Origin: a virus
Direction: 5' to 3' (one strand)
IMG/VR virus record: IMGVR_UViG_3300037240_000024
Coordinates: 1 to 64,000 of that record
DNA length: 64,000 nucleotides
Shown here: piece by piece, positions 1 to 63,529 of the stretch
Layout: each line of letters opens with the position of its first letter
How positions within the stretch are numbered: the stretch's first letter is position 1
Made by a program: the position numbers and the translations under genes
Notes under the pieces: generated by a model
What the model saw: only the letters and a program-made list of their open reading frames with translations
Database searches by the model: none
Told to the model about the DNA's origin: nothing

Positions 1-120
1 TACGGGTTCTTCCCGAGCAAATACTACCCGAAGCCTCTTCAGGTGCTAAACGTGCTGATCGAACAGGCTGGCGCCGATGCGCCGCAGGAAAGAACCGTCC
101 GGTTCGAATGGAGCGAATGA
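1..120 (+). CDS. C-terminal end of a gene cut by the window start
   Basis: Frame 1 is open from the first base to TGA at 118-120 and encodes 39 residues ending RFEWSE. The start lies outside the window. The next gene begins at ATG 117, overlapping this stop as ATGA, the usual junction in this genome. No family recognised. The truncated ORF at the right end of the window (63890-64000) would join it exactly in frame if the ends were contiguous, giving a protein of about 76 residues; that join is inference. Confidence 0.6.
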   Translation, partial: YGFFPSKYYPKPLQVLNVLIEQAGADAPQERTVRFEWSE

Positions 121-377
121 TGGCGAACGTGGTTGGCATTCGCGGTGTTGCCGTCCCAGACGAGAACGGCGCCAACCCGGACGTCGTATCTCTTATGGAA
201 GAGCTTCTTGGAGACGCACGATCTGGCGCACTAAAAGCTATCGCGCTGTCAGCAATTTACGGCAACGATGACATTTGCACGCGCTCAGCCGCAGACACCG
301 GCTACAGGCATTCTCTTCTGGCGGGGACGGTCTATCTTCAGATAGACCTCGCGGCGGAGAGTAAGGAGATCAAGTGA
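117..377 (+). CDS. Hypothetical protein (86 aa)
   Basis: Begins at ATG 117 (a second ATG follows at 120), overlapping the upstream stop. The protein starts MMANVVGIRG and contains two polar helical-looking stretches; no signal peptide, membrane segment or recognised motif. It is followed by a TGATG overlap with the next gene, so it belongs to the small-gene run that precedes the portal. Function unknown. Confidence 0.6.
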   Translation: MMANVVGIRGVAVPDENGANPDVVSLMEELLGDARSGALKAIALSAIYGNDDICTRSAADTGYRHSLLAGTVYLQIDLAAESKEIK

Positions 378-1357: not shown

Positions 1358-3130
1358 TCACTTCTTCCCGCCGTGAGCCTGAAGCTTAGCCTGCTCGGCC
1401 GCTTGCTGCGCCTTGGCCTTCGCGATGTCGCGCCGCGTGACACCCATCTGGAGCGCCTCGGGATCGGTGACGTCGAGTTCGTCGAGCGCATCGGCCGGCG
1501 ACATGCCGCCGATCTTGACCAAGTCGAACACCAGTGACTTGTGGTCCTGCGCGAAGGCGGGCGACGACGAGTGCGAGTTGACCGTCAGCGTCAGGTCATC
1601 GGACAGATCGTCGAATCCGAACAGCACCGGGACCATGCCTTCGGCCGGCGGCACGGCGAACTTCAGCACCTCTTCGTCGCCTTCGACGCCAGCAGCCGAC
1701 TTCTCGACCCAGGCGCACATCTTCTTGGCGTCGTGGGCTCGCGACATATCGAGCATGAAGCCGCCGAACGATTCGACGTCGCGCTGCGTCAGCAGCGCCC
1801 GATCCTTGAAGCGTGGCGAGAACATTCGCACCAACGCCTCCGCATGATTGGCTGAGCGCACACCTTTTTCGCCGTGACCCTTCGCGGTCGGCGGAATCCC
1901 CATGAGGTCGTCGAACATCCGCTCGTATTCGTGCAGCGAATTCCAGATGTCTTGCGGGATCGTGACAAGATCGCGTTCGATCTTGGCTTGCGGAGACGAC
2001 TCCACGTAGTAGCCCGCCGGCTTGTTGAACCGCGACAGCGCCAGTTGGTTGACGCCGGTGCCGCCGATGAACTTGGTTGACGGCTCTTCCTCTTTTCTCA
2101 GCATTTTGTTGATGCCGACGATCCGGCTATTGATCGCTTCTTGCAGCATCATTAGCCGTGCGATCTCGCTCATTCCCCAGAAGTACCACGGCACCGGGTT
2201 CGGGCAGAACGTGTTGAACGGATGTACGCCCTTCAGGTGTGGAGCCGACATCTTCTTTTCGGTGTCGTAGGCCAGCGCGTTCTGGAGCGAGTAGCGGCCC
2301 ATCAGGAAGATGTCGTCGCCGATCGTCGAGAAGGTCGTCCAGTCTTCGCGCTCGTCGTCCCACACCCACAATTCATCCAAATCCATCAGCGAGTGCTCGA
2401 CCTCGGGCGACATCTCGGGCCGGGGTGACGACATCCAGTCGACGATGCCGCGCGTCTGCGAGACGCCGCCACCGGCGGCCTGGAGCGGATAGAGCCCGCC
2501 GACGACGATGTTCATCGCCGAGCCGCGCGTGTCGTTCAGCCCGCCGGTCGCCTCCTTGACGTATTTTTTCGACTTCCGAGCCAGTTCCACCTCATCCGGT
2601 CGCCCGGCGATCAGCCGCAGGAACTGGTGCTGCGTGATCTGCGTCGTGTGGACGAACGCCTCCATGTCGGGATCGAGCTTCGTGTGGTTTTCGCGATAGA
2701 CGCCGAACTCCGTCGGCGGCACCAGCGTCGGCAGAAAGGCGCCGCGCTTGTAGAGCATCTTTATGATGCCGATCCCTTCGACCAGCCCCGAGCACACCGC
2801 CTGCGAGATCATGGAGTCGGCGTCGCTCTGCCGGCAGTGCTGCCTGATCCTGGCCGCCGCCGCGCGACCCTTCGCCTCGTTGACGACGTTCGGAATATCA
2901 GGATCTCCGATGTGGAAACGCAGCGACACCGGCGAGTAGAGCAGCGATTCCAGATCGTCGATTGAGGCGAACGTCTTGTTATACATGGCGGGGTTCGACG
3001 GGTCGGAACTCCCTGAAGAATAATAGCTTTGGAACAGTTGGCCCCTGTTTGCCCGATTGTCCCGCGAGGACAGGCATTGGTTCGTCAAGCCTCGGACGAA
3101 CTGCTTCAAGTCCTTACGGGGTATTCTCAT
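1358..3130 (-). CDS. Portal (head-tail connector) protein, encoded on the minus strand
   Basis: About 590 residues, the usual size for podovirus-type portals. The N-terminus (KDLKQFVRGL, NRANRGQLFQSYY), the segment YFWGMSEIARLMMLQEAINSR with the following IGAINK-like helix, and the Ala/Gln-rich C-terminal coiled tail match the overall pattern of such connectors; identification is by overall resemblance rather than a diagnostic catalytic motif. ATG 3130 (protein MRIPRKDL) is chosen because the 16 residues added by the upstream ATG at 3178 read like translated leader and overlap repeated regulatory DNA. It is the only large structural gene on the minus strand: transcribed towards the left, convergent with the zinc-ribbon gene and divergent from the capsid operon. 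Confidence 0.7.
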   Translation of the reverse strand: MRIPRKDLKQFVRGLTNQCLSSRDNRANRGQLFQSYYSSGSSDPSNPAMYNKTFASIDDLESLLYSPVSLRFHIGDPDIPNVVNEAKGRAAAARIRQHCRQSDADSMISQAVCSGLVEGIGIIKMLYKRGAFLPTLVPPTEFGVYRENHTKLDPDMEAFVHTTQITQHQFLRLIAGRPDEVELARKSKKYVKEATGGLNDTRGSAMNIVVGGLYPLQAAGGGVSQTRGIVDWMSSPRPEMSPEVEHSLMDLDELWVWDDEREDWTTFSTIGDDIFLMGRYSLQNALAYDTEKKMSAPHLKGVHPFNTFCPNPVPWYFWGMSEIARLMMLQEAINSRIVGINKMLRKEEEPSTKFIGGTGVNQLALSRFNKPAGYYVESSPQAKIERDLVTIPQDIWNSLHEYERMFDDLMGIPPTAKGHGEKGVRSANHAEALVRMFSPRFKDRALLTQRDVESFGGFMLDMSRAHDAKKMCAWVEKSAAGVEGDEEVLKFAVPPAEGMVPVLFGFDDLSDDLTLTVNSHSSSPAFAQDHKSLVFDLVKIGGMSPADALDELDVTDPEALQMGVTRRDIAKAKAQQAAEQAKLQAHGGKK

Positions 3131-3189
3131 GTCATCCGATCCTATCGAATGGTTTAGACAGGCGAACGAGCATGTCATCCGATCCTATC
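3128..3189. repeat. Two direct copies of a CATGTCATCCGATCCTAT element at the portal start
   Basis: CATGTCATCCGATCCTATC occurs at 3128-3146 and, preceded by AG, again at 3169-3189, 41 bp apart. The first copy contains the portal start codon and its AGGA-type upstream region on the minus strand. The second continues to TATGCTGAT, making an imperfect dyad (GCAT...ATGC). The same core recurs in inverted orientation at 58165-58192 and 59772-59801 around the serine recombinase. It may be an operator, a recombination site or a duplicated leader. Confidence 0.7.
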
Positions 3190-3223
3190 ATATGCTGATC
3201 GTTGGGCTTTTTCAAACCCTATA

Positions 3224-3253
3224 TTGACACGTTGTTCTTTTCCAGCGTATTCG
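3224..3253 (+). promoter_or_regulatory. Promoter for the 15-aa peptide/capsid region
   Basis: TTGACA at 3224-3229 and TATTCG at 3248-3253 separated by 18 bp resemble a vegetative sigma-70 promoter. It lies upstream of the micro-ORF at 3307 and a strong terminator, and on the opposite side of the divergent portal gene. Confidence 0.5.
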
Positions 3254-3306
3254 TAGAAACGTAGGGTTGAGACTAGACTCACCTTCTTCGGAAAAGGAGA
3301 CTTCCT

Positions 3307-3354
3307 ATGGTTGCTCGTCAGCGCCGCCACAAGGGCCGTAAGGGCCGCAAGTAA
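3307..3354 (+). CDS. 15-residue Arg/Lys-rich peptide, own promoter and terminator
   Basis: ATG 3307 is preceded by AAAAGGAGA at a 6-7 nt spacing, one of the best ribosome-binding sites in the region. The reading frame encodes MVARQRRHKGRKGRK, nine of fifteen residues basic, and stops at TAA 3352-3354. A promoter-like pair lies 55 bp upstream and a UUCG-loop terminator 16 bp downstream, so this is a self-contained transcription unit. It could be a nucleic-acid-binding peptide, a leader peptide, or part of a small RNA. Confidence 0.5.
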   Translation: MVARQRRHKGRKGRK

Positions 3355-3370
3355 GACTTCGGTCTGGAGG

Positions 3371-3397
3371 CCGGGAGCCTTCGGGCTTCCGGTTTTT
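3371..3397 (+). terminator. Rho-independent terminator with TTCG tetraloop
   Basis: CCGGGAGCC and GGCTTCCGG pair (one G-T) around the loop TTCG and are followed by TTTTT. It lies between the 15-aa peptide gene and the capsid operon, and may partly attenuate transcription into the capsid genes. Confidence 0.85.
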
Positions 3398-3411
3398 CAC
3401 AAAGGATTTTG

Positions 3412-3816
3412 ATGCCGCTTCCGATGCCAGCACCTGGCGGTCAAGGCGCTCCCCCACCTCCGGGTGGCGGCGGAACCGGACCCGTAACGGCTGGCGGGCC
3501 TCTCGCCGGTTCGGCGTCGCAAGGCATGGCGAAGGTGAAGCTGGGACTTGAGGCGCTTCAGGCGGCTCTCCCGATGATCCCGATGGGGTCGGAACTTCAC
3601 ACCGATCTGATGAAGGCCGTCTCGTCCATCACGAAGCACCTTGGCGATAAGGGCGGCGAAGGTGGCGGCGGCCAGCAGATTCAGCAGCTTCTCGAAATGC
3701 TGCGGAATGCGAAGATGCAAGGCGCTCCCCCGCAAGCCGGCATGATGCCCGGCGGCGGAGCGGGCGGCGCTCCACCCCCTCCTGGCGCAGGCGCTCCGCC
3801 TCCGCCGGCTATGTAG
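3412..3816 (+). CDS. Pro/Gly-rich virion-associated protein (134 aa)
   Basis: ATG 3412 has AAAGGA upstream. A helical core (about residues 35-100, with KVKLGLEALQAALP and QQIQQLLEMLRNAK) is flanked by low-complexity Pro/Gly tails at both ends. It is the first gene of the capsid operon, before the scaffold candidate and major capsid protein. Function unknown; a structural or assembly cofactor role is inferred from position. Confidence 0.6.
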   Translation: MPLPMPAPGGQGAPPPPGGGGTGPVTAGGPLAGSASQGMAKVKLGLEALQAALPMIPMGSELHTDLMKAVSSITKHLGDKGGEGGGGQQIQQLLEMLRNAKMQGAPPQAGMMPGGGAGGAPPPPGAGAPPPPAM

Positions 3817-3825
3817 GAGATCAAG

Positions 3826-4011
3826 ATGTCCAGTCGTTTTCCCAAGGCGTACACCGCTGAGGTCAAGAAAGACGAATCGATGATGGTCTACACGACCTTC
3901 CCGACGATGGGCATCGGCGCGCGCCCGAGCGGCTTGCCCAAGACCGTCAGCGACGGCCCGAAAAATATCGAGCACGTCGGCAAGTCCGCTTCCGGCACGG
4001 GGAGCAAGTAA
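3826..4011 (+). CDS. Small protein of the capsid operon (61 aa)
   Basis: Starts at ATG 3826, 9 bp after the previous stop, with GGAGATCAAG upstream. A basic, serine- and glycine-rich polypeptide (MSSRFPKAYT...ASGTGSK) with no recognised motif. It lies directly upstream of the scaffold candidate. No function assigned. Confidence 0.55.
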   Translation: MSSRFPKAYTAEVKKDESMMVYTTFPTMGIGARPSGLPKTVSDGPKNIEHVGKSASGTGSK

Positions 4012-4014
4012 ACC

Positions 4015-4590
4015 GTGGCCGAGGCGACAGAAGCTCAGATCCGCGCGCTCGCGATTCTTGAGGAATCGTGGAACGATCCCGAGTTCGGGACTGCGCTTCA
4101 GAAGAAGGTCAAGGCGAAGTTCCCTGACGCCAAGACGAACGAAGACGTCTTCGCCCCGGTTATCAATCCGCTGCGTGCCGAGAACGCCGCGCTGGCGAAG
4201 AAGCTGGAAAAGATCGAGGAAGAGCGTGCCGCCGAGCGCAAGGAGCGCGAAGAGACGAGCATGAAGCGCTCGCTCGACGAGGCTCTGACCTCCGCGCGCA
4301 AGAACTACAATCTGACCGAAGAGGGCTTTGACAAGATGGTCGCCCGCATGAAGGAAACGGGCAACTATTCCGACGCCGACGCCGCCGCCGCGTGGGTCGC
4401 CAGCAAGACGCCGCCCGCGCCGGTCGCCGGGCCTTCGTGGAAGCCGCAGTCGATGAATCTATTCGGCGCCAAGAAGTTCGACGAGGCCTTTGCCGAACTT
4501 CATCGCGATCCGCAGGAATATATGGACAACCAGCTTTCAATTTTCGCATCAGACCCGGACGCTTACGTCGCTGAAACCTTCGGTCGCTGA
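4015..4590 (+). CDS. Probable capsid scaffolding protein (191 aa)
   Basis: Begins at GTG 4015, three bases after the preceding stop. Residues ~55-90 form a strongly charged coiled coil (LRAENAALAKKLEKIEEERA), followed by helical segments and a C-terminal tail. Size, charge, helix content and position immediately before the major capsid gene are typical of phage scaffolding proteins, which direct procapsid assembly and then leave. There is no sequence signature that proves this. Confidence 0.65.
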   Translation: MAEATEAQIRALAILEESWNDPEFGTALQKKVKAKFPDAKTNEDVFAPVINPLRAENAALAKKLEKIEEERAAERKEREETSMKRSLDEALTSARKNYNLTEEGFDKMVARMKETGNYSDADAAAAWVASKTPPAPVAGPSWKPQSMNLFGAKKFDEAFAELHRDPQEYMDNQLSIFASDPDAYVAETFGR

Positions 4591-4619
4591 GCGCGAACCA
4601 TGATTAACGGAGCCGTTTG

Positions 4620-5690
4620 ATGGCCTATCCTACCAGCCCGGTTTCGACATTGACGGGAAGCGGAATCACGCCCGGAGGCGCTCTCGGCGCCCAACTTGCG
4701 GCGATCACCCGGCGCGCTTTTTTGCCCTCACTTTTCGTTCAAATTTACCAGTCGCACCCTCTTTTGTCGCTCTTCATGAGTCAGTCCAAGGCGGCCCGAG
4801 GCGGCGTCTCCCAGATCACCGTCCCGGTGCAGGGCTCCAGCTTCGTGGCCTTCAATTGGGGCTCGTTCACCGGCGACTTTCCGATGCCGACCGATCAGAC
4901 GGCCATTCAGAACGCTCAGTTCAGCCTCAAGCTCGGCATGGTTCCGATCGGCTTCTTCGGCATGGAGGCGATTATCCAGTCCTCCGAGGTGGTGATCCCG
5001 AAGCTGCGGGCCGTCATGTCCGATGCCGCCGTGGTCATCAAGCAGGCTTTCGCGCAGTCGCTCTACGCCAATAACGTCGCCAACCCGCAGGCGTGGGATT
5101 CGCTGTCGATGGCTTACGACGACGGCACGAACGTCCCGTCCTACGGCGGAATCACCAGGACGCCCGGCAGCTTCTGGTCCGGCCAGCTTATCAACAACAC
5201 CGGCGCGGCGGCGGTCACGCGCGTCGGCATGGCGCAGATCCTGACACGCATCCAGGCCGGCGCCGGCGGCGAGGCTCCCGACTATGTCGTGATGAACCCC
5301 GCCAACTGGGCGGAACTGATGAGCGATTTCCAGTCGCTCGAAATGTTCATGACGCGGCCGAACTCGATCTACAACAAGGACGACGTCGTCAACACGGGCT
5401 TCCGCGCCATCCGCGTGCTCGACACACCGATCTTCCCCGACCCGTTCTGCCCGCTGGGCCAGGCGTTCGCCATCAACAGCCGTTACACCGGCCTCTACAT
5501 GAGCGAATACGCGCCGATGACCTTCTCCGGCTTCGAGAGCCAGATCGCCGTCGGCCAGCTCAGCGACGTCGGCGTGCTGATCTCCGCCGCCGATCTCGTC
5601 TGCGCCAAGCCTTCGAGCGGCGCGCAGATCACGAACATCACCGGGGCCGCGTGGCCCAACGTTCCGGGGACTCAACCGGCGGTCCTTTAA
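4620..5690 (+). CDS. Major capsid protein
   Basis: About 356 residues from ATG 4620. The layout is that of an HK97-fold coat protein: an N-terminal arm, a central segment with VMNPANWAELMSDFQ, a late segment RAIRVLDTPIFP, and a C-terminal FSGFESQIAVGQLSDVGVL strand region. It follows the scaffold candidate and precedes duplicated beta-repeat proteins that may decorate the shell. Identification rests on overall pattern and synteny. Confidence 0.75.
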   Translation: MAYPTSPVSTLTGSGITPGGALGAQLAAITRRAFLPSLFVQIYQSHPLLSLFMSQSKAARGGVSQITVPVQGSSFVAFNWGSFTGDFPMPTDQTAIQNAQFSLKLGMVPIGFFGMEAIIQSSEVVIPKLRAVMSDAAVVIKQAFAQSLYANNVANPQAWDSLSMAYDDGTNVPSYGGITRTPGSFWSGQLINNTGAAAVTRVGMAQILTRIQAGAGGEAPDYVVMNPANWAELMSDFQSLEMFMTRPNSIYNKDDVVNTGFRAIRVLDTPIFPDPFCPLGQAFAINSRYTGLYMSEYAPMTFSGFESQIAVGQLSDVGVLISAADLVCAKPSSGAQITNITGAAWPNVPGTQPAVL

Positions 5691-21337: not shown

Positions 21338-21931
21338 ATGGCTGCTCCGGCGCTCACCAATTACGCGGACGGCGTCGGCGCGGTAAACGGCGACAACCTC
21401 AACACGTTCGTTCAAGGCGGCGTGCTGTTGGCGCAGCTTCAACTTTTCCCCGGCGCATGGAACGGCCAAGTCGTCTATCTCGGCGGTTACACCTCGACGG
21501 GTGACGGCGGTCAAGGTTTTTTCTGGTGGAACTCCACATCCACCGCGACGAGCAACGGGGTGACGGTCATCGTTCCGTACGGAACGGTCGGCTATGGGGC
21601 CTGGCTGCGTCTTAACGACAACTCCGCTGGGGTATCGACGTTTCGGTACGTCACCGCAGGAACGAGCGACGTAGCGCGTTCAGTGGACTCAACGATCGTT
21701 TGGAAATCCACGGTCACGTCGGGCAAAACGGAAGTGCTCCCAGCGGCGAACATCTTGACGGCGGGGACGACGATGACTGTGAAAGACGGGAATTACACGT
21801 CGGCGAGCTACCCGATCACGGTGACTTCGACGGCGAGCACGATAGACTCGAATCCCTCGGACATAATTCAGCAGAACGGCGCGTCGCGTAGCTATCGCAC
21901 GGATGGCGTGTCGAATTGGGTGATCGTATGA
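21338..21931 (+). CDS. Tail fibre/spike head module (197 aa)
   Basis: The N-terminus NYADGVGAVNGDNLNTFVQG is nearly the same as that of the gene at 23395 (NGVGAVSGDNLNTFPQ), so the two are paralogous attachment modules. The following segment has GGYTSTGDGGQGFFWWNST, a motif common near the start of phage spike proteins. It is translationally coupled (ATGA) to the next gene, the larger beta-helix protein, so the two may assemble together. Confidence 0.65.
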   Translation: MAAPALTNYADGVGAVNGDNLNTFVQGGVLLAQLQLFPGAWNGQVVYLGGYTSTGDGGQGFFWWNSTSTATSNGVTVIVPYGTVGYGAWLRLNDNSAGVSTFRYVTAGTSDVARSVDSTIVWKSTVTSGKTEVLPAANILTAGTTMTVKDGNYTSASYPITVTSTASTIDSNPSDIIQQNGASRSYRTDGVSNWVIV

Positions 21932-23394: not shown

Positions 23395-23760
23395 ATGGCC
23401 AATCCGGCGCCTGCAAATTTTCAGAACGGCGTCGGCGCGGTCAGCGGCGACAATCTCAACACGTTCCCGCAGGTGGTTTTCAATCTGGCGCAACTCCGAA
23501 CTTTCACCGGCGTCGCCAGTTCGGTCGCCTTCGTTCTTGGAGCGGTGGCGCCGAACGACGGCGGCCAGTCTTTCTATTTCTATCAGTCGAGCGGTTCTTA
23601 CGTGGACAATGGGACGTCGGTGATCGTTCCGTACTTTTCTTTGACGGGGGCGTGGATTCAGATCCAATTCTCTCTTAACGGCGCGGCCTACCCGACTTCT
23701 AATCCTGGCGCCGGGTCCGGTCTGATTTGGAATAATCAGGGGTTTCTATGCGTAGCCTAA
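23395..23760 (+). CDS. Second fibre head module (121 aa)
   Basis: Paralogue of the N-terminal part of the 21338 gene: NGVGAVSGDNLNTF followed by a segment with APNDGGQSFYFYQSSGSYVD and VIVPYFSLTGAWIQIQ. Its stop lies 13 nt inside the next gene. The repeated order head module then signal-peptide beta-helix protein (21338/21928 and 23395/23748) suggests duplication of a two-gene fibre unit. Confidence 0.65.
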   Translation: MANPAPANFQNGVGAVSGDNLNTFPQVVFNLAQLRTFTGVASSVAFVLGAVAPNDGGQSFYFYQSSGSYVDNGTSVIVPYFSLTGAWIQIQFSLNGAAYPTSNPGAGSGLIWNNQGFLCVA

Positions 23761-37431: not shown

Positions 37432-37650
37432 ATGACGGATTTCGACTATCACAAATTCCTGCGGGACAAATTCGGCGACGTCGATCGTCTGGTCGCGTTT
37501 CTGCACACCTACCGGCACGACATCCCACGCGCCACGGTGAACCAGTGGTTCCGCCGGGCGTCCGTCCCGGCCGATCATTTCGCCACGCTGCTGATGTTGC
37601 TGGAGATGGACGTCGGCGGTCCGGTGTCTCTCGTGGAGTATGTGCGATGA
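37432..37650 (+). CDS. Cro-sized helix-turn-helix regulator (72 aa)
   Basis: The sequence VDRLVAFLHTYRHDIPRATV followed by NQWFRRASVPADHFATLLML has the layout of a Cro/CI-type HTH, in which the recognition helix lies at about PRATVNQWFRRAS. It has no oligomerisation or protease domain, so it is Cro-like in size rather than a full repressor. It lies directly behind two copies of the recurring operator, which makes autoregulation likely and makes it the best candidate for the protein that binds all copies in the genome. Confidence 0.65.
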   Translation: MTDFDYHKFLRDKFGDVDRLVAFLHTYRHDIPRATVNQWFRRASVPADHFATLLMLLEMDVGGPVSLVEYVR

Positions 37651-44039: not shown

Positions 44040-44183
44040 ATGGAACCGTGCAAGCATTGCGGCTCAACCGAAGAGGCTGTTTGTTGGTGGTTTGAGAGCC
44101 ACGACGATTTAGAAGCGCCTTGCGGAGCCGAGTCTGGCGACGAAGACAAATTTAACGATCAAGGCGAGGACGAGCGTGGCTAA
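44040..44183 (+). CDS. 47-aa zinc-knuckle-like acidic protein
   Basis: GGGGAGGCGAGC lies just before ATG 44040. [20 protein letters not shown] shows CxxC plus a third cysteine, and [14 protein letters not shown] a fourth; the tail is highly acidic. A small zinc-binding protein is plausible. Its stop overlaps the GapR start by 8 nt. Confidence 0.55.
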
Positions 44184-44433
44184 GAAATCTGCCGAGATCG
44201 GCGACAACAGCAACGGCCAGCTACTGGCCTTCATTGAGCGCATCGAACGGCTCAACGAGGAGAAAAAGTCGCTCGGCGAGGACATCAAGGAGGTGTTTGC
44301 CGAAGCCAAAAGTAGCGGCTACGATCCCAAGATCATGCGCAAGGCGCTGGCGATTCGTAAGCTGGACAAAGACGCGTACGCTGAGCAGGAAGCGTTGCTC
44401 GACACCTACCTAAAAGCGCTCGGAGTCTACTGA
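44176..44433 (+). CDS. gapR: GapR family nucleoid-associated protein (DUF2312, 85 aa)
   Basis: The sequence after GTG 44176, [20 protein letters not shown], then [20 protein letters not shown] and [20 protein letters not shown], is essentially the GapR/DUF2312 pattern along the entire length. In Caulobacter and relatives GapR is a DNA-binding protein that encircles overtwisted DNA ahead of replication and transcription machinery and aids topoisomerases. A phage copy may help fork progress or alter host chromosome topology. The family is typical of Alphaproteobacteria, which constrains the host. Confidence 0.9.
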
Positions 44434-44579: not shown

Positions 44580-44830
44580 TGCTACTTGAACCGATCCTCA
44601 CCTTCAACCACTTGTTCGTCGAGGCCAAGCAGCGTGGCTTCCAGATGGAGCGGTTGTGCGAAGACGATTACGGCTTCTGGTTCTGCACATGGCGCAAGGG
44701 CGGACAATTCTTCGGCCCCGTCTCACCGCGCCGCCAGCCGTTCATCGCCGCGCACGACGCCTTCATGACGGCGTTCGCTATCGATGAGATGGTCAAAGAG
44801 GAAGAAACCTCCAGCGATCTGTTCGGGTGA
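44579..44830 (+). CDS. Small protein ending in SDLFG (83 aa)
   Basis: An aromatic-rich domain (KQRGFQMERLCEDDYGFWFC, TWRKGGQFFGPVSPRRQ) is followed by a helix and an acidic tail EEETSSDLFG. The middle resembles the protein at 45213 (FELVYLKQDRGSDFFRCIWR), and both end with DLFG, so they look like paralogues. The tail also resembles that of the ssDNA-binding protein upstream, suggesting a shared partner. Confidence 0.6.
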   Translation: MLLEPILTFNHLFVEAKQRGFQMERLCEDDYGFWFCTWRKGGQFFGPVSPRRQPFIAAHDAFMTAFAIDEMVKEEETSSDLFG

Positions 44831-45216
44831 GCGCGATGACGCTGGAACAGGCTAAAGACCAGATCGCCGAACTGGAGGAGCGTATTCGTCAACTCATCGA
44901 CGAGCGCGGCGACAATGAACGGTTCTCTGCCGGTCTGGCTTTGCCGAAAAGGCTCTCCATGCTCGCCGGCATGTTTACGAAGAGACGTCTTGTCACGCAC
45001 GAGCAAATCATCAACTGCTTCTACGGGGGCTACTTCGACTCCGAGCCTAGAAAACCGGAAGATGTAATAGCGGTTACGGTGGCGCGTCTTCGTCGTAAAC
45101 TATCCGACTATGAGATCAAAATACGTTCGCGGTACACGATAGGGTACGAAATCAGCGAAGCCGATCAGATGAAGCTGCGGGCGCTTGTGACGACGATGCG
45201 GCGGGACGGAGAATGA
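44827..45216 (+). CDS. Stand-alone winged-helix DNA-binding protein, PhoB/OmpR effector-domain type (129 aa)
   Basis: After an N-terminal coiled coil (TLEQAKDQIAELEERIRQLI), residues ~45-120 follow the OmpR/PhoB effector-domain pattern: KRLSMLAGMFTKRRLVTHEQ, EDVIAVTVARLRRKLSDYEI, IRSRYTIGYEI (recognition helix then wing hairpin with GYxI). There is no receiver domain, so it cannot be controlled by phosphorylation. It may compete with or mimic a host response regulator such as CtrA; that is inference. Confidence 0.6.
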   Translation: MSAMTLEQAKDQIAELEERIRQLIDERGDNERFSAGLALPKRLSMLAGMFTKRRLVTHEQIINCFYGGYFDSEPRKPEDVIAVTVARLRRKLSDYEIKIRSRYTIGYEISEADQMKLRALVTTMRRDGE

Positions 45217-45438: not shown

Positions 45439-45774
45439 ATGACTCGCGCCCCGCTATTCAACCGCCGCGCCGGCCAGTCGTTCGAGATCGAGCACTTCGA
45501 CCCGCTGGCCGGGCCGCAGGGCATGGCGCTGCGGTTCCACATCACGATCGGCGAGTACAAGGACGGCAAGCCTGGCGAGGTGTTCATCACGGCGCTGGGC
45601 AAAGCCGGGCGCGGTTCGATGTTGGAGGCGTTCGCGCGAGACGCCGGGGTGCTGATCTCTCTCGCGATCCAGTACGGCGCTCCACTGGAAACACAGCGTC
45701 GCGCCATCACGCGCGACGCGCAGAACCGGCCATTGACGTTCGTTGGCGCCGTGCTCGATGCGATGGAGGGGTGA
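45439..45774 (+). CDS. Stand-alone TSCPD-like domain protein (111 aa)
   Basis: RFHITIGEYKDGKPGEVFIT, ALGKAGRGSMLEAFARDAGV, LISLAIQYGAPLETQ and the final AVLDAMEG follow the TSCPD domain pattern known from the C-termini of class II (B12-dependent) ribonucleotide reductases, where it is thought to aid function. Free-standing copies occur in phages near DNA polymerase genes. A role in nucleotide metabolism is possible, but no reductase gene is present in the window. Confidence 0.6.
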   Translation: MTRAPLFNRRAGQSFEIEHFDPLAGPQGMALRFHITIGEYKDGKPGEVFITALGKAGRGSMLEAFARDAGVLISLAIQYGAPLETQRRAITRDAQNRPLTFVGAVLDAMEG

Positions 45775-46475
45775 TGTCTCGATATTTCTGGGCCGCCGAG
45801 GAGATCGCAACGCTGTTGCGGCTCAAGGAAGAGGGCCTCTCCAATCAGGAGATCGGCGAGCGGTTGAGCGTGACGGACCAGGCCGTGAAAAACAAACTGA
45901 AGAAGATGCGGCACGCGCCGCCCAAGCCGTCCGACACGTTCTGGACGCCGGAGCGCCTCTCGAACCTACGGGTTGGCGTTGAAAACAGGCTGAGCGCGGC
46001 CGACATTGCGGCGCTGCTGGGCTGCACACGCAACGCCGTGCGAGGCAAGATGGAACGGCTGGGGTTGTGCGTTCCGTCGCTACGACAGAAACGAAATACG
46101 ATTGCCTATCAGCTGCCGGGCAGACCTCCGTTTGACGCACGTACTATGGAGGTGTGGGACTCGAACCCGATGTATGCACAATGCGATCACGACGTCAATT
46201 TGGTCGAACTAGAATATCGCAGTGCGCGAGACACTGCGGCTAAAGTGCTGTTCGACGAACCTGAGACGGAAACCGAAGCGCCGCCGGATGGCGTTCCGAT
46301 CTGGGCTCTGCGAGCAAATCACTGCCGAGCCATTCTCAACGACACGATGGACACGGAGGCTCTGCGCTATTGCGGCGGCCAGACCGTCAAAGGCGGCCCA
46401 TGGTGCAAGACGCATCATGCGAGGTACTGCACGCCAATCCCGGCGCGCGTGAAGGTGGTTGGGAGGTATCGGTGA
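45774..46475 (+). CDS. GcrA-like cell-cycle regulator with duplicated N-terminal HTH (233 aa)
   Basis: The N-terminus has two successive GcrA-type HTH units: WAAEEIATLLRLKEEGLSNQ ... VTDQAVKNKLKKM (~5-45) and FWTPERLSNLRVGVENRLSA ... CTRNAVRGKMERLGLC (~56-100). The C-terminus HCRAILN ... RYCGGQTVKGGPWCKTHHAR (~183-215) is the cysteine/histidine-rich end characteristic of GcrA. In Alphaproteobacteria GcrA binds sigma-70 and methylated promoters to activate S-phase genes. A phage version could redirect host RNA polymerase. The doubled HTH is unusual; bacterial GcrA normally has one. Confidence 0.8.
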   Translation: MSRYFWAAEEIATLLRLKEEGLSNQEIGERLSVTDQAVKNKLKKMRHAPPKPSDTFWTPERLSNLRVGVENRLSAADIAALLGCTRNAVRGKMERLGLCVPSLRQKRNTIAYQLPGRPPFDARTMEVWDSNPMYAQCDHDVNLVELEYRSARDTAAKVLFDEPETETEAPPDGVPIWALRANHCRAILNDTMDTEALRYCGGQTVKGGPWCKTHHARYCTPIPARVKVVGRYR

Positions 46476-52400: not shown

Positions 52401-52534
52401 TTTCGCATCCTTTCAACGTAGAACAGAGCCAAGACATACGCCGCGACGCACGCCGCGACGTATCCTTCGACCAGAACGCGCTTCGCGCGTTCTTTGCTCA
52501 GGACGAGCGACAGGATTTTGCGGAGTCTCGTCAT
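52397..52534 (-). CDS. 45-aa membrane protein
   Basis: Minus-strand ATG 52534 gives MTRLRKILSLVLSKERAKRV followed by LVEGYVAACVAAYVLALFYV and a basic end. One membrane helix with a basic amphipathic N-terminus. ATGA overlaps at both ends tie it to the repeat-protein gene and to the gene below. Confidence 0.55.
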   Translation of the reverse strand: MTRLRKILSLVLSKERAKRVLVEGYVAACVAAYVLALFYVERMRK

Positions 52535-53169
52535 TTCGGATTGTCAGAAAATTCGGCGAGGCGCCCGAAAGTCTGTGCGGTGACGCGCTTGTACTCCGCA
52601 TAGGCCGGCGCGCAGACGCGCTTGTACTCCGCAGAGGCCGACGCGCAGACGCGCTTGTACTCCGCATAGGCCGGCGCGCAGACGCGCTTGTACTCCGCAG
52701 AGGCCGGCGCGCAGACGCGCTTGTACTCCGCATAGGCCGGCGCGCAGACGCGCTCGTACTCCGCAGAGGCCGACGCGCAGACGCGCTCGTACTCCGCAGA
52801 GGCCGGCGCGCAGACGCGCTTGTACTCCGCAGAGGCCGGCGCGCAGACGCGCTTGTACTCCGCAGAGGCCGGCGCGCAGACGCGCTTGTACTCCGCATAG
52901 GCCGGCGCGCAGACGCGCTTGTACTCCGCATAGGCCGACGCGCAGACGCGCTCGTACTCCGCAGAGGCCGACGCGCAGACGCGCTCGTACTCCGCAGAGG
53001 CCGACGCGCTCAAAAGGTTTTGTGCCGCCCACTTCCAGTCGAATTTGTCGGCGACACCGGCGCAAATGGCTTCCGTCACTTCGGCGCCATTTGGAAATAG
53101 TTCTTTGAATAGCGCGACCTGCGAAGAGCAAGCCTGTTTACGCTTGAGAAGCGCAGCGGTGATTTTCAT
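52531..53169 (-). CDS. Protein with 13 hendecad (11-residue) repeats (212 aa)
   Basis: ATG 53169 has GGAG 8 nt upstream. The N-terminal 55 residues (MKITAALLKRKQACSSQVAL, FKELFPNGAEVTEAICAGVA, FDWKWAAQNLL) are a domain I recognise from other phage proteins that precedes Ala-rich repeats. Thirteen copies of AxAEY(E/K)RVCAx then run to near the end. An 11-residue period suits a right-handed or straight coiled coil, and each unit carries one cysteine. The exact DNA repeats allow expansion or contraction. Function unknown. Confidence 0.65.
   Translation of the reverse strand: MKITAALLKRKQACSSQVALFKELFPNGAEVTEAICAGVADKFDWKWAAQNLLSASASAEYERVCASASAEYERVCASAYAEYKRVCAPAYAEYKRVCAPASAEYKRVCAPASAEYKRVCAPASAEYERVCASASAEYERVCAPAYAEYKRVCAPASAEYKRVCAPAYAEYKRVCASASAEYKRVCAPAYAEYKRVTAQTFGRLAEFSDNPK
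52582..53010. repeat. 13 tandem copies of a 33-bp unit
   Basis: The 429-bp array is exactly 13 x 33 bp. Units differ mainly at three positions (CTTG/CTCG, CATAG/CAGAG, CCGGC/CCGAC). Because the period is divisible by three, several frames on both strands stay open across it; only the minus-strand frame of the 52531-53169 gene has a matching flanking domain and ribosome-binding site. Confidence 0.9.
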
Positions 53170-53174
53170 ATTTG

Positions 53175-53360
53175 TCACTCCGTCATCATGCGCTTGAGCG
53201 CGCGGGCTTTGCGGATCTCCGCCGCCATGTCGGCGACGTAAGCGGCTTCCAGGTCGATTCGCTTCGACTTGTGGGCCTGGGAGAGCGCAGCGCCGTAGCG
53301 TCGGCGCGCGATGGCGTGCGCGTCGGATGCGCGGCGATAGTCGTCTGTGGCGTTGAGCAT
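53175..53360 (-). CDS. Small helical protein (61 aa)
   Basis: MLNATDDYRRASDAHAIARR, then SKRIDLEAAYVADMAAEIRK. Two charged helices, basic overall. Lies between the repeat protein and a coiled-coil protein. Function unknown. Confidence 0.55.
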   Translation of the reverse strand: MLNATDDYRRASDAHAIARRRYGAALSQAHKSKRIDLEAAYVADMAAEIRKARALKRMMTE

Positions 53361-55726: not shown

Positions 55727-55808
55727 GTTCGTATCTCCCATTTCAGCGTCTCAATTGATCGCCGCATATGCCGACGGCTTGTGACGGCGCGTCGGCATAA
55801 ACTGCGAT
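55724..55808. repeat. Direct repeat, copy A (~85 bp leader with hairpin)
   Basis: Nearly identical to 56021-56104. On the minus strand it contains an inverted repeat TATGCCGACG/CGTCGGCATA (55767-55776 and 55790-55799) followed by a ribosome-binding site and CGAACATG. It separates gene 55808-56023 from gene 55313-55726. A shorter third copy of the ribosome-binding end only is at 56341-56363. Confidence 0.9.
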
Positions 55809-56023: not shown

Positions 56024-56104
56024 GTTCGTATCTCCTATTCAGCGTCTCAATTGATCGCCGCATATGCCGACGGCTTGTGACGGCGCGTCGGCATAAACTG
56101 CGAT
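56021..56104. repeat. Direct repeat, copy B (~84 bp leader with hairpin)
   Basis: Second copy of the leader at 55724-55808, with its inverted repeat at 56063-56072 and 56086-56095. The only differences are near the ribosome-binding site (CTATT against CCATTT on the plus strand) and at the ends. It links gene 56104-56343 to gene 55808-56023. Confidence 0.9.
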
Positions 56105-57903: not shown

Positions 57904-58150
57904 CCGGGAACCTCCCCCGCTCCGACGGCTTGACGCCGAGCGGCGCCGGGGCTATTCGAGAGGTCCGTGGGCTTCCCTGGTGGGTTGACATGGAAGCATC
58001 TAGCCCGACGCTCATACGGCTGACGAGCTGCTGAAATGCAGCGAAACGTGAAAACGTCCCGTGGAGCCTCCCAAGTTGGGGAATAACTGGAGGCCTAGGC
58101 CCGCCGCTGAAAACGCCGTCCCGCATCGCACCGGGGCGGCGTTTTCGTTT
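57904..58150 (+). terminator. Untranslated 3' region ending in a strong terminator
   Basis: About 200 bp without a gene, containing several short GC-rich inverted repeats, ends in GAAAACGCCG-TCCC and GGGG-CGGCGTTTTC (58109-58146) followed by GTTT. The 10-bp perfect outer stem makes this one of the strongest terminators in the window. The preceding untranslated stretch could be a structured 3' RNA; no known RNA family recognised. Confidence 0.7.
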
Positions 58151-58164
58151 GACGGCGCTCCAAA

Positions 58165-58192
58165 AGCATGTCATCTGATCGGATGGTGTCAA
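58165..58192 (-). repeat. Left inverted repeat of the recombinase block
   Basis: Read on the minus strand it is TTGACAC-CATCCGATC-AG-ATGACATGCT, which matches the plus-strand copy at 59772-59801 at nearly all positions (a GC insertion and two substitutions). The pair faces outwards around 1.6 kb with five small genes including the serine recombinase. TTGACA with CATGCT at 16 bp also reads as a promoter pointing left. Confidence 0.75.
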
Positions 58193-58203
58193 CGGAGGAT
58201 GCG

Positions 58204-58548
58204 ATGAATTACGTCGATCTCACCCATTTCGAAAATACGTTTCGCGATCTCGACACGGCGCAGGGCGTTGCGCTGTCCGACTGGGCCAAGCCATCCAGTG
58301 TCGAAGTCAAGTTCACCAACGGCGGAACGAAGCAGCGGCACATCCCAATCGTCGATCACGAAGCTACCGCCAATTTCCGGCTCGGTGTGATCGAGGCGCT
58401 TCAGATTGAGAATGGCCGGCTGCGCGCCGATCTGAAGACAGCGGCCAATCTCTATTTTGGTCTGATCCAGGAGGCTGAGCCGATTCCGACGCCTGGTGAG
58501 GTGCTGGCGAAGGTGTTATCCTCCGACGATTACTGGACAGGAGCGTGA
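58204..58548 (+). CDS. Hypothetical protein (114 aa)
   Basis: ATG 58204 has GGAGG 5 nt upstream and starts 12 bp after the left inverted repeat. MNYVDLTHFENTFRDLDTAQ, then DHEATANFRLGVIEALQIEN and DLKTAANLYFGLIQEAEPIP: a helical protein. Function unknown. Confidence 0.6.
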   Translation: MNYVDLTHFENTFRDLDTAQGVALSDWAKPSSVEVKFTNGGTKQRHIPIVDHEATANFRLGVIEALQIENGRLRADLKTAANLYFGLIQEAEPIPTPGEVLAKVLSSDDYWTGA

Positions 58549-58549
58549 G

Positions 58550-58795
58550 ATGTTGAAGATTGCCGCAACGTTTTTGCTCTTCGCGACTGCGGTTAGAGCG
58601 GACGTAGTCGATCTGAACGATTTTCTCTCGCCGGGTTACAAGCCTGGCGACGACGTCTCTATTCCGTTGCAGAAAGCGATCGACTCGGCGTGCGCAGCGA
58701 CGCCGCTCGATCCGGTCGTGCTGCTTTCTTACGGCGTGGTGAACATAAAAGAAAGCATACACGGTACGTGCGGTGTAACGCTGCAAATTCGATAG
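58550..58795 (+). CDS. Exported small protein (81 aa)
   Basis: MLKIAATFLLFATAVRADVV is a short signal peptide with VRA-D cleavage. The mature part has two cysteines (DSACAATPLD, HGTCGVTLQIR). A periplasmic phage protein made outside the fibre cassette; possibly a superinfection-exclusion or envelope factor, but this is speculation. Confidence 0.5.
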   Translation: MLKIAATFLLFATAVRADVVDLNDFLSPGYKPGDDVSIPLQKAIDSACAATPLDPVVLLSYGVVNIKESIHGTCGVTLQIR

Positions 58796-58804
58796 GAGCG
58801 TGAG

Positions 58805-58924
58805 ATGGCCGAAGCGGCTATGTTCGTCACGCTCATCGCGCTGATCTCCTATTGCGCCTATCTGGATCGGCGTGAGCATCCGAAGCCGAAGCCGGCGAAG
58901 GAACGGAAGTTTCGATCTTTCTGA
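58805..58924 (+). CDS. 39-aa membrane-anchored basic peptide
   Basis: ATG 58805 in the recombinase block. MAEAAMFVTLIALISYCAYL is a membrane helix, followed by a basic tail DRREHPKPKPAKERKFRSF. Function unknown. Confidence 0.5.
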   Translation: MAEAAMFVTLIALISYCAYLDRREHPKPKPAKERKFRSF

Positions 58925-58977
58925 TTGACTTTTCCGTCAAAATGCTTTAGACCTTTCTGATAAATGGAGGGTCTAAA
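58925..58977 (+). promoter_or_regulatory. Recombinase promoter with TTTAGACC inverted repeat
   Basis: TTGACT (58925-58930) and TTAGAC or TAGACC 16-17 bp later form a promoter. TTTAGACC (58946-58953) and GGTCTAAA (58970-58977) are perfect 8-bp arms 16 bp apart; the first covers the -10, the second abuts the start codon. A related segment (GTCAATAAGATTTAGACCTT) is at 56672-56691. Confidence 0.65.
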
Positions 58978-59532
58978 ATGCGCTACGGCTACGCTCGTGT
59001 CTCCACCCAGGACCAGAGCCTTGAGATCCAAATCGCCGATCTGACGAAGGCCGGCTGCGGCGACATCAGGTCCGAGAAGGTCAGCGGCGGCTCGATTCAT
59101 AATCGCGATGAGTTCGTCAAGCTTCTCTGGGATTTGAAGCGCGGCGACGAATTGTGGGTCGTGCGTATCGACCGATTCGCTCGTAGCCTCGCCGATCTCG
59201 CGGTGACGGTGCGCGATCTGACGAAGCGCGGCGTGGTTCTCAAAGCCACGCAGCAGCCCATCGACACCACGACCGCTTCGGGGAATGCGTTCCTTGGGAT
59301 GCTCGGGGTGTTCGCCGAGTTCGAGCGCAGCCTTACGGCCGAGCGCCAGGCCGTCGGAATCGCGGCGGCTCACGCGGCGGGCAAGTACGAGAAATGCGGC
59401 CGACCGTGCGTGACGGGTCATATCGACAAGCAGGAGGTGAAGGCGATGCTGGAGCGGGACGGCCGGGTGAAGACGGCCAAACATTACCGGCTGTCGGAGA
59501 GCGCGATTTACAGACTGGCGAGGGCGGCGTGA
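58978..59532 (+). CDS. Serine recombinase (resolvase/invertase family, 184 aa)
   Basis: YGYARVSTQDQSLEIQ places the catalytic serine at about residue 9. GDELWVVRIDRFARSLADLA (~57-76) carries the conserved arginines, and FAEFERSLTAERQAVGIAAA (~113-132) the E-helix. A short HTH with KQEVKAMLERDGRVKTAKHY closes the protein (~150-180). It is the small resolvase/DNA-invertase type, not the large phage integrase type, so it would resolve multimers or invert DNA rather than integrate. Inverted repeats flank its block. Confidence 0.85.
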   Translation: MRYGYARVSTQDQSLEIQIADLTKAGCGDIRSEKVSGGSIHNRDEFVKLLWDLKRGDELWVVRIDRFARSLADLAVTVRDLTKRGVVLKATQQPIDTTTASGNAFLGMLGVFAEFERSLTAERQAVGIAAAHAAGKYEKCGRPCVTGHIDKQEVKAMLERDGRVKTAKHYRLSESAIYRLARAA

Positions 59533-59795
59533 CCGACGAAGATATTGAATACGTCATCAAGATCGTAGCCGACGCGGCTTGGGGTCTTGCATCTCGTGAG
59601 AGCGACGGCGACGGCGACCCAAATCGGAATCTCTGTCTTCGCATTGAGGACTTGAGCGACGACCCGGTCGTCAGCAAGAACCTTCTCGCGCACGTCAAGG
59701 CGCTACTTGTTCGCGATGAAAAGTCTTCTGACTGGGAGATGCACTTGGATGCGTGGTTTGCGGAAAGCGCCTTGACACGCCATCCGATCCTATGA
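59529..59795 (+). CDS. Small acidic protein coupled to the recombinase (88 aa)
   Basis: GTG 59529 overlaps the recombinase stop (GTGA). MTDEDIEYVIKIVADAAWGL, NLCLRIEDLSDDPVVSKNLL, HVKALLVRDEKSSDWEMHLD: acidic and helical. Its last codons run into the right inverted repeat, which encodes its C-terminus (ALTRHPIL). Function unknown. Confidence 0.6.
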   Translation: MTDEDIEYVIKIVADAAWGLASRESDGDGDPNRNLCLRIEDLSDDPVVSKNLLAHVKALLVRDEKSSDWEMHLDAWFAESALTRHPIL

Positions 59796-59801
59796 CATGC
59801 T
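59772..59801 (+). repeat. Right inverted repeat of the recombinase block
   Basis: TTGACACGC-CATCCGATC-CT-ATGACATGCT, partner of 58165-58192. TTGACACGCC also begins the rightward promoter at 37361. As a promoter it would point right, towards the gene at 59828, which has CGAGGAG upstream. Confidence 0.75.
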
Positions 59802-59827: not shown

Positions 59828-60073
59828 ATGGCCGACGATCATGATCTTTTTGAGGGCGGCGCTGTGGCTGGCCGTCCTGTTGATGCGACTCAGTCCGTCG
59901 CCGGAGTTGGGACGGCTGCGAAGGTCTATCCGCCGCCGGTTGCGCAGAACCAGGACTTCAAGGCCAAGCTGAGAGCGGCGGTCGACGAGCACTTCCCGGC
60001 GATGGACGCTGACGGCGTCGAGGCTCATCAGCCGATGCGGGATTTCTGCCTTAAGGTTATGAGCATCCTGTGA
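59828..60073 (+). CDS. Hypothetical protein (81 aa)
   Basis: ATG 59828, GAGGAG upstream. A Gly/Ala/Val-rich N-terminal half precedes KAKLRAAVDEHFPAMDADGV and PMRDFCLKVMSIL. A terminator-like hairpin follows. Function unknown. Confidence 0.55.
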   Translation: MADDHDLFEGGAVAGRPVDATQSVAGVGTAAKVYPPPVAQNQDFKAKLRAAVDEHFPAMDADGVEAHQPMRDFCLKVMSIL

Positions 60074-61329: not shown

Positions 61330-61649
61330 TGTCTGAACTTCTCATCCCACGCCGTCGTTTTTTGCAAGGCATGGCGACTTTGTTTGTCGCCCCGGCGATC
61401 ATCAAGGCGTCGTCGCTGATGCCGGTGAAATCTTGGCGTGAAGTTTGGCTCTGGCCGGTGCCGCCGGACGGTCGCAGCGTGACGTTTTTCGGTGGTCGTG
61501 TTTGGTGGCTGCACGATTCGGACTGTTCAGGTATGTTCTATTCCGAAGTCGGGGATTGGTTATCGCATCCTCAAGCGGCGCAGATTGAGATGCGCCCGTT
61601 CGTATTGAAAGATACTTTTACAAGAACCGATCATGCGGTTGCAGGCTGA
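61329..61649 (+). CDS. Small protein with Tat-like N-terminus (106 aa)
   Basis: The N-terminus IPRRRFLQGMATLFVAPAII then KASSLMPVKSW has an RRxFL twin-arginine motif and a hydrophobic stretch. Proteins with this start (RRxFL...APAIVRASSLMPV) are, as I recall, common in phage packaging regions and are often flagged as Tat substrates. The remainder (WLHDSDCSGMFYSEVGDW) is aromatic-rich. It is coupled to the terminase gene. Export is uncertain. Confidence 0.6.
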   Translation: MSELLIPRRRFLQGMATLFVAPAIIKASSLMPVKSWREVWLWPVPPDGRSVTFFGGRVWWLHDSDCSGMFYSEVGDWLSHPQAAQIEMRPFVLKDTFTRTDHAVAG

Positions 61650-63529
61650 TGGCCCTCAAGGCGTCGAAGTGGCTGAAGGCGTTCGAGACTTTCGCGGCTG
61701 ATCTCAGGATCAAGTCGAAGGAAGAAGTCTCGATCGATCAGCACGGCGTTCCGCTCAGCATCTGGGTCAGCCAGCGCCGGTTCCTGGAGGAGATAGGCAA
61801 CGGCCTCGATAGCGGCATCCACAGCTTCAACATTCTCAAGAGCCGACAGCTCGGCGTCACGACCCTGTCGGTCGCGCTGGTGGACGTGTTCTGGCCGGCC
61901 ATGCACCCCGGCATCATCGGCTGTCTCGTCACCGACACCGAGAAGAATCGCGAACTCAACCGCGCGATGATCGAGGGTTACATCAACTCGTTCCCCGATG
62001 GTTATTTCGGCGGGAAATTCTCGATCACCCGGTCGAACCGGCAGATGCTCCAGTTTAGCAACGGATCTCGGCTCGATCTGCTGGTGGCCGGCACGAAGAA
62101 GAAAGCGATCGCCTGGGGTGAAGGTCAGGGCTACGCCTTCGCCCATCTCACGGAATTGGCCTCCTACGGTGACGTTGAGGGCTTGAAGTCTCTTGAAGAA
62201 GGCTTCGCTCAGTCCAATCCGCATCGGCTGTTCGTGCGTGAATCCACGGCGAAAGGCTACAACCATTGGCGAGCCCGCTGGGTCGCCGGCAAGAACTCGC
62301 TCACCGAGCGCAGCTTCTTCATCGGTTGGTGGAGCGGCGACAAGAACCGGATCGAGCGCAAGGACGCGCGCTTCAACCAGTTCGGTCTCTACCCGCCGAA
62401 CCCCGAAGAGAAGGGCAAGATCGAACTGGTGCGGCAGGCGTACGGCTGGAAGATCACGCCCGAGCAGCTTGCGTGGCATCGCTGGAAGCGCACCGACGCC
62501 GGCGCCGAGCAGGGTCTGCTCGATCAGAATCAGCCGTGGGACGAACAGGAAGCGTTCGTCATGTCCGGCTACAGCTTCTTCCAGACGCGCGTCATCGACA
62601 GCGACTTGAAGGCGCTGCTGGACGATCCGCCGATCTTCAAGGGTTATCGCTATCAGGTCGACGGCGATTTCTACAGCTTCAAGATGATGGCTCTGGACCC
62701 GGAGATCGACAGTGTCGATGACGTCGAACTCAAGGTTTGGGAAGAGCCTGTGGACGGAGCCAAATATGCGATTGGTTTTGATCCAGCCTACGGGCGAAAT
62801 GAGCATAAGGATGGAAGCGCCATTGTCGTGCTACGGTGCTTTGCTGATCGCGTTGTGCAGGTTGCAGAATATAGGTCGTCTGAGGTTGAGGCTCGACACG
62901 CCGCCTGGGTGGCTTTCCATATCTGCGCCGCTTACCGAGACTGCATGATAAACGTCGAACTGACCGGGCCGGGGCGGCTCGTGATGGCTGAGTTCGATCA
63001 TCTCCGTCAGCTTCTCGGCGCCGAGATGAACGTCGCGCGCACCGAGCAGCGCGGTTGGCAGGACGCAGCGGCCAACGCGCGCTGGTTCCTGCACCACAGG
63101 GAAGACTCGTTCGGCTCCGGCTTTGCGGCGAATTACGAAACGACGTGGCGCTACAAGCAGGAAATGCTTTACAAGCTGAAAGGCTCGTACGTCAGCCGCG
63201 AACTCGACATCCGTTCGATGGCGCTGCTGAACGAGATGAAAAATGTCGTGGTCGACAACGACGACATCGGAGCACCTGAGTCCACCGACGAGGACAAGAA
63301 GGACGATCGTGTCTTCGCGCTCGGTCTCGCCAATCTCGCATGGATGTCGTGGATCAGAAAAGAGATGATCTCGCAGGGGCTGACCTATGACACGGTCATG
63401 GCGGCCGAGCGTGGCGACACCGAACTGGCGACGCACGGGCTCAATAGCCTGGTGTATCGTTTTCTCGCTCGGGCTGACGAGCCGATCGAGAAAGAACCGA
63501 CGTGGCGCGAACTTCAAGGTCTGGAATAG
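61649..63529 (+). CDS. terL: Terminase large subunit (626 aa)
   Basis: The ATPase has a Walker A variant in FNILKSRQLGVTTLSVALVD (~59-78), Walker B in YAFAHLTELASYGD (~161-174) and coupling motif region RESTAKGYNHW (~196-206). The nuclease has KYAIGFDPAYGRNEHKDGSA (first Asp, ~373-392), VELTGPG (~434-440, glutamate) and KKDDRVFALGLANLAW (~551-566, final Asp). It pumps DNA into procapsids and cuts concatemers. In many phages the portal follows; here the window ends 0.5 kb later, and the portal lies near position 1.4-3.1 kb on the opposite strand. Confidence 0.9.
   Translation: MALKASKWLKAFETFAADLRIKSKEEVSIDQHGVPLSIWVSQRRFLEEIGNGLDSGIHSFNILKSRQLGVTTLSVALVDVFWPAMHPGIIGCLVTDTEKNRELNRAMIEGYINSFPDGYFGGKFSITRSNRQMLQFSNGSRLDLLVAGTKKKAIAWGEGQGYAFAHLTELASYGDVEGLKSLEEGFAQSNPHRLFVRESTAKGYNHWRARWVAGKNSLTERSFFIGWWSGDKNRIERKDARFNQFGLYPPNPEEKGKIELVRQAYGWKITPEQLAWHRWKRTDAGAEQGLLDQNQPWDEQEAFVMSGYSFFQTRVIDSDLKALLDDPPIFKGYRYQVDGDFYSFKMMALDPEIDSVDDVELKVWEEPVDGAKYAIGFDPAYGRNEHKDGSAIVVLRCFADRVVQVAEYRSSEVEARHAAWVAFHICAAYRDCMINVELTGPGRLVMAEFDHLRQLLGAEMNVARTEQRGWQDAAANARWFLHHREDSFGSGFAANYETTWRYKQEMLYKLKGSYVSRELDIRSMALLNEMKNVVVDNDDIGAPESTDEDKKDDRVFALGLANLAWMSWIRKEMISQGLTYDTVMAAERGDTELATHGLNSLVYRFLARADEPIEKEPTWRELQGLE

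Follow-up and report, generated by a model that had tools for sequence, protein, structure and literature searches.

Operators of the 434/lambda kind, and those of Sinorhizobium phage 16-3, consist of a 14-bp dyad that is present at a few promoters per genome and overlaps the promoter. In known phage operators, a site placed between the -35 and -10 boxes fits repression. Other short regulatory sites are arranged differently: the stoperators of cluster A mycobacteriophages are numerous, asymmetric and dispersed over the genome in either orientation (PMC9283540, PMC6550527), and the CtrA sites in phages of Alphaproteobacteria lie at promoters, are occupied by a host regulator and are concentrated in terminal or gap regions (PMC9437464).

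The locus considered here belongs to a 64,293-base virus record, of which 64,000 bases (the window) were analysed. Named phage DNA gave no match to the window, and the named relatives of its major capsid protein are all distant; two contigs of the phage group come from a Rhizobiales metagenome-assembled genome. A 14-bp dyad is repeated at a few putative promoters of this genome and overlaps them, as in 434/lambda and 16-3, but the sites mark packaging and head genes instead of an early immunity region, and their binder is only putative. They recall stoperators in being short and scattered in either orientation, yet there are four copies, which are dyadic and placed at promoters or gene starts. 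With CtrA sites they share conservation at promoters, as sites of a (here putative) regulator in phages of the same host class, but the motif is different. Judging from the sequence, the two copies that a preliminary description had taken for the possible ends of an invertible or mobile block are very probably not termini of flipping or moving DNA but phage promoters that carry one and the same regulator-binding site and belong to a family-wide regulon of packaging and head genes.

Two near-identical elements facing apart

58165..58192, minus strand: site B, leftward promoter-like element (TTGACA 58187-58192, dyad CATCCGATCAGATG 58172-58185, -10-like CATGCT 58165-58170, spacer 16)
59772..59801, plus strand: site C, rightward promoter-like element before the terminase-leading operon (TTGACA 59772-59777, dyad CATCCGATCCTATG 59781-59794, -10-like CATGCT 59796-59801, spacer 18)
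58109..58146, either strand: strong hairpin, terminator-like both ways, about 20 bp beyond site B in its leftward direction

Site B, read on the minus strand from 58192 to 58165, is TTGACACCATCCGATCAGATGACATGCT, and site C, on the plus strand from 59772 to 59801, is TTGACACGCCATCCGATCCTATGACATGCT. The near-identity reported in the preliminary description is borne out: 19 of the 21 final bases are the same, with TTGACA offset by 2 nt, and as inverted arms the two sites form a pair of 25 nt, 88% complementary and spaced by 1587 nt. The repeats are real and far above chance. Chance would give the 21-base core, three mismatches allowed, 0.01 times per window; it is present at B, at C and at 3169-3196 (in both readings), and TTGACA-N10-20-ATGACAT occurs twice in the window against 0.02 expected. 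A genome-wide search for inverted repeats returned 15 at threshold, where two shuffled sequences gave 0 and 2. Most of the 15 are local palindromes or GC-rich pairs, and no plausible segment was recognised between the arms of any of them. Two direct repeats were also seen: a 33-bp tandem repeat at 52531-53178, inside a minus-strand ORF, that encodes repeated A-AEYKRVC units, and an exact 67-bp repeat (55742-55808 and 56038-56104) between small minus-strand genes.

Both sites have the same order of parts, namely TTGACA, the 14-bp dyad (CATCCGA–TCAGATG or CATCCGA–TCCTATG) and TGACATGCT; this last stretch is compatible with a weak extended -10 at a spacing of 16 bases in B and 18 bases in C. The -10 hexamers are weak, the spacers range over 16-18, and a strict sigma-70 promoter scan reported neither B nor C; the assignment of B and C as putative promoters is based on comparison and not on a consensus score. 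Site C overlaps the 3′ end of the ORF 59529-59795. Since B points left into the strong hairpin, a short transcript may arise from it, and leftward of B the hairpin is reached without a clear gene to drive. No exact match to the left junction of B was found among the viral contigs searched. Rfam had no match over the window or the related contigs L202, L203, L081 and L082.

The serine recombinase between the sites

58978..59532, plus strand: small serine recombinase, 184 aa (Resolvase PF00239, E 2.5e-36; PHROG 125 'DNA invertase', E 2.2e-51)
58925..58953, plus strand: probable own promoter of the recombinase (TTGACT-N17-TAGACC, then CTTTCTGA)

Five ORFs lie between B and C (58204-58548, 58550-58795, 58805-58924, 58978-59532 and 59529-59795), and only 58978-59532 is identifiable. 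Its product has a catalytic and a C-terminal part and, like the Gin/Hin/Cin enzymes, aligns with Gin over nearly its full length (residues 2-179); unlike in those systems, no paired crossover sites were found on the flanks of an invertible segment, and the inverted repeats look like promoter elements. The enclosed genes, the recombinase among them, were described correctly at the outset. The right copy reaches into the last ORF and so does not lie entirely outside it, and the repeats do not form a pair, because two more copies are present elsewhere (3128-3146 and 3171-3189). Upstream of the recombinase gene, TTGACN-N17-TARACCTTTCTGA is kept in the window and in two close relatives (L082 and L202).

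Further copies at the portal-like gene

3128..3146, plus strand: site A1, same dyad at 3133-3146, lying across the start of the portal-like gene
3171..3189, plus strand: site A2, same dyad at 3176-3189, which shares bases with the -10 box of a predicted minus-strand promoter; also in L081
1358..3130, minus strand: portal-like gene (very weak Pfam match SU10_portal, E 0.017; between terminase and capsid; conserved)
4617-5690: major capsid gene, next after the portal-like gene in the order read from site C
61649..63529, plus strand: terminase large subunit (Terminase_6C just below cut-off; conserved relatives)

Both additional copies, A1 and A2, read CATGTCATCCGATCCTATC. Because the genome holds four copies of the dyad, B and C cannot be singled out as a pair bounding a block. 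A2 coincides with a good minus-strand promoter, TTGAAA (3210-3215) N17 TATGAT (3187-3192), aimed into the portal-like gene. This gene is antiparallel to the terminase and capsid genes, as it is in the related phages examined. In 33 of 50 distinct relatives ATAGGAT lies no more than 60 nt ahead of the portal start, at 16-17 nt in 30 of them (shuffle frequency 0.008, a figure that ignores phage relatedness); the phages being related, the count expresses conservation and not independent events, and the signal may be partly a ribosome-binding site.

The end of the record (64031-64293) repeats about 127 bases of its start (window 1-127) before diverging, which suggests that the genome probably closes near 64,030 bases and that the record carries a variant tail; contig L081 spans the end-start junction. 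With the record ends joined, site C is followed by the terminase, small genes, the portal-like gene on the minus strand and the major capsid gene. Further into the genome, the adjacent ORFs 21338-21931 and 23395-23760 have a common N-terminal module, NGVGAV.GDNLNTF, and are perhaps duplicated tail-fibre attachment parts.

Conservation of the element in relatives

59828..60073, plus strand: first gene after site C, retained in L081 and L202

A close relative, L081, matches 58299-59533 at 99.4% identity in unchanged orientation. Immediately 3′ of its recombinase stands GCCGCTTGACACTTCATTCGATCCGATCCTATGGTGTGCT, with a spacing of 23 between TTGACA and the putative -10, and then the homologue of gene 59828. 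L082, whose upstream genes differ from those of the window, has GCGGCTTGACGGACCATCCGATCCTATGGCATGG at the recombinase stop, and L202, from the Rhizobiales metagenome-assembled genome, has GCCGCTTGACACGCCATCCGATCCTATGACATG there, followed by the 59828 homologue. In all three contigs TTGAC overlaps the recombinase stop codon and gene 59529-59795 is missing. No inverted partner of the element was seen in the sequence available for L081, L082 and L202 (coverage of L081 stops short of the left of B, and L202 starts inside an upstream gene, so these contigs offer a direct comparison for site C and not for B). Inside the terminase gene of L202, an insertion of about 410 codons (about 4119-5359) keeps the reading frame, starts with CLAEGTPVITKHG, ends with GVGN before T and looks like an intein from its sequence; the same gene is interrupted in contig L157 (gap 3112-4073).

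The wider comparison covered five long relatives, G001-G005. There, too, the architecture is TTGAC, a dyad centred on A–T and then usually a -10-like hexamer, and the dyads have diverged: CGCTTGACATGATACTGTGGTATCGAGTAGCTT in G002, TCTTGACATGATACCGTGGTATCGAATAGCTT in G004, TCTTGACGGATACTATGGTATCGTCGTATCC in G005 and CGCTTGACTGATACTATGGTATCGAGTAATTT in G001. In these four phages a serine recombinase gene precedes the element by at most about 140 bp, and the terminase follows the element. In G003, TTGACACCATACTATCCTATC precedes the terminase, and the recombinase gene is about 7 kb off on the other strand. The dyads of G001 and G005 are identical (GATACTATGGTATC), and while the recombinase of G005 is of the window's type, that of G001 belongs to another subfamily (28% identity over 113 residues, Recombinase-type C-terminus). 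Thus, the site does not follow the recombinase.

Five motif matches were found in viral contigs; L197, L198 and L199 were left out of the comparison, no tie to the phage group being established for them. In L203 a B-type dyad, TTGACACCATCTGATCGGATGGTATTCT, stands between the homologue of gene 760 and the portal end, and the short stretch after it ends in a terminator-like hairpin. In L157 the B-type dyad is a perfect palindrome, TTGACGCCATCCGATCGGATGGTATCTT. Both have TTGAC and a -10-like hexamer in the layout of site B, with no adjoining recombinase in the sequence covered. Nowhere among the related loci examined does the element form an inverted pair around a recombinase gene.

Recombination or regulation

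It is easy to see why an invertible segment was proposed, with the recombinase crossing over at B and C and flipping the 1.6 kb between them, since the gene for a Gin-like serine recombinase has on each side one of two almost identical dyads, inverted and centred on A–T. This is nonetheless extremely unlikely. Beyond the additional copies at the portal-like gene and the elements of L082 and L202, placed right after the recombinase and single in the sequence available, the element persists away from any adjoining recombinase in L203, L157 and G003, and the same dyad accompanies different recombinase subfamilies; the recombinase gene keeps its orientation relative to the terminase in all relatives except G003, where the element is far from it. 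As the recombinase gene has its own upstream element, and G001 and G005 share one dyad despite their different subfamilies, B and C are unlikely to be crossover or binding sites of this enzyme. A small mobile block with terminal inverted repeats is scarcely credible at all. The sharp change of content at the right edge, where three relatives lack the last ORF, and the region 57.2-58.3 kb, almost matchless among the loci compared, could point to it, but neither an empty site nor a target duplication was seen, and the right repeat is retained where the neighbouring gene has been lost: L081 lacks the last gene of the block, and its element still precedes the same downstream gene. Moreover, seven relatives have a serine recombinase gene of varying subfamily at this place, directly before the terminase operon, which marks it as a resident. 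As an observation that would speak against inversion, the preliminary description had named the recurrence of these repeats before unrelated genes in related phages, and such an arrangement is found here.

Resolvases repress their own promoters, and the recombinase itself might likewise bind the dyad as a regulator. Its gene adjoins the putative promoter of the terminase operon in the seven relatives, and resolvase sites also have an A–T centre. However, the mismatch between dyad and subfamily in G001 and G005 and the distant, oppositely oriented recombinase gene of G003 argue against this reading, as does the symmetry, which spans only about 14 bp in most sites; it is therefore very unlikely. 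Similarly little credence is due to the idea that the recombinase, encoded beside the packaging promoter in much of this phage group, binds the dyads and switches transcription of head and packaging genes, whether or not it also recombines DNA. The other possibility raised at the beginning, outward promoters sharing an operator, is the one backed by the comparison of relatives: one genome has the same dyad at several gene starts or putative promoters, and the position of the dyad before the same genes is kept in relatives. The repeats would look inverted around the recombinase gene because they are two separate promoters that face apart.

A putative promoter-operator and candidate regulators

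The promoter-operator reading would involve sigma-70-type promoters with the 14-bp dyad as an operator inside the spacer. A dimeric regulator, probably phage-encoded, would sit on the dyad, across the -35 and -10 boxes or between them, and thereby switch packaging and head genes jointly. Site C would head the operon that runs to the terminase, A1 and A2 would govern the oppositely directed portal-like gene, and B would be an additional leftward copy beside the five-ORF cluster. We infer both the promoter activity of the sites and the preference for repression over activation, the latter from the placement of the dyad between the -35 and -10 and from the analogy with known phage operators.

Putative candidates for the regulator encoded in the window include small HTH, GcrA-like and winged-helix proteins. 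The small HTH protein 37432-37650 was set aside, as its own gene bears a different dyad. The gene is conserved in G001-G005, with TAACA..TGTTA dyads upstream of it in the window, G001, G002 and G004, and its promoter is likely self-regulated. The GcrA-like cell-cycle regulator (45771-46475; PF07750, E 1.5e-21) and the winged-helix protein (44827-45216) had no tblastn match in G001-G005 at E 1e-4, and the GcrA target, GANTC, is absent from the dyads. A GapR-like DNA-binding protein (PF10073, E 6.7e-31) is encoded nearby at 44176-44433. A promoter for a phage RNA polymerase was also weighed on account of the long conserved stretch, and was rejected: the large ORFs scanned include no such polymerase.

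Significance for the phage group

Regulation of this kind is ordinary for a phage; the phage group itself is poorly known. A serine recombinase gene of varying subfamily is constantly present just before its putative packaging promoter. With the invertible block removed as a false lead, a conserved promoter-operator signature is offered for the group; the motif marks packaging and head promoters that are probably co-regulated, and it may be used to find their regulator.
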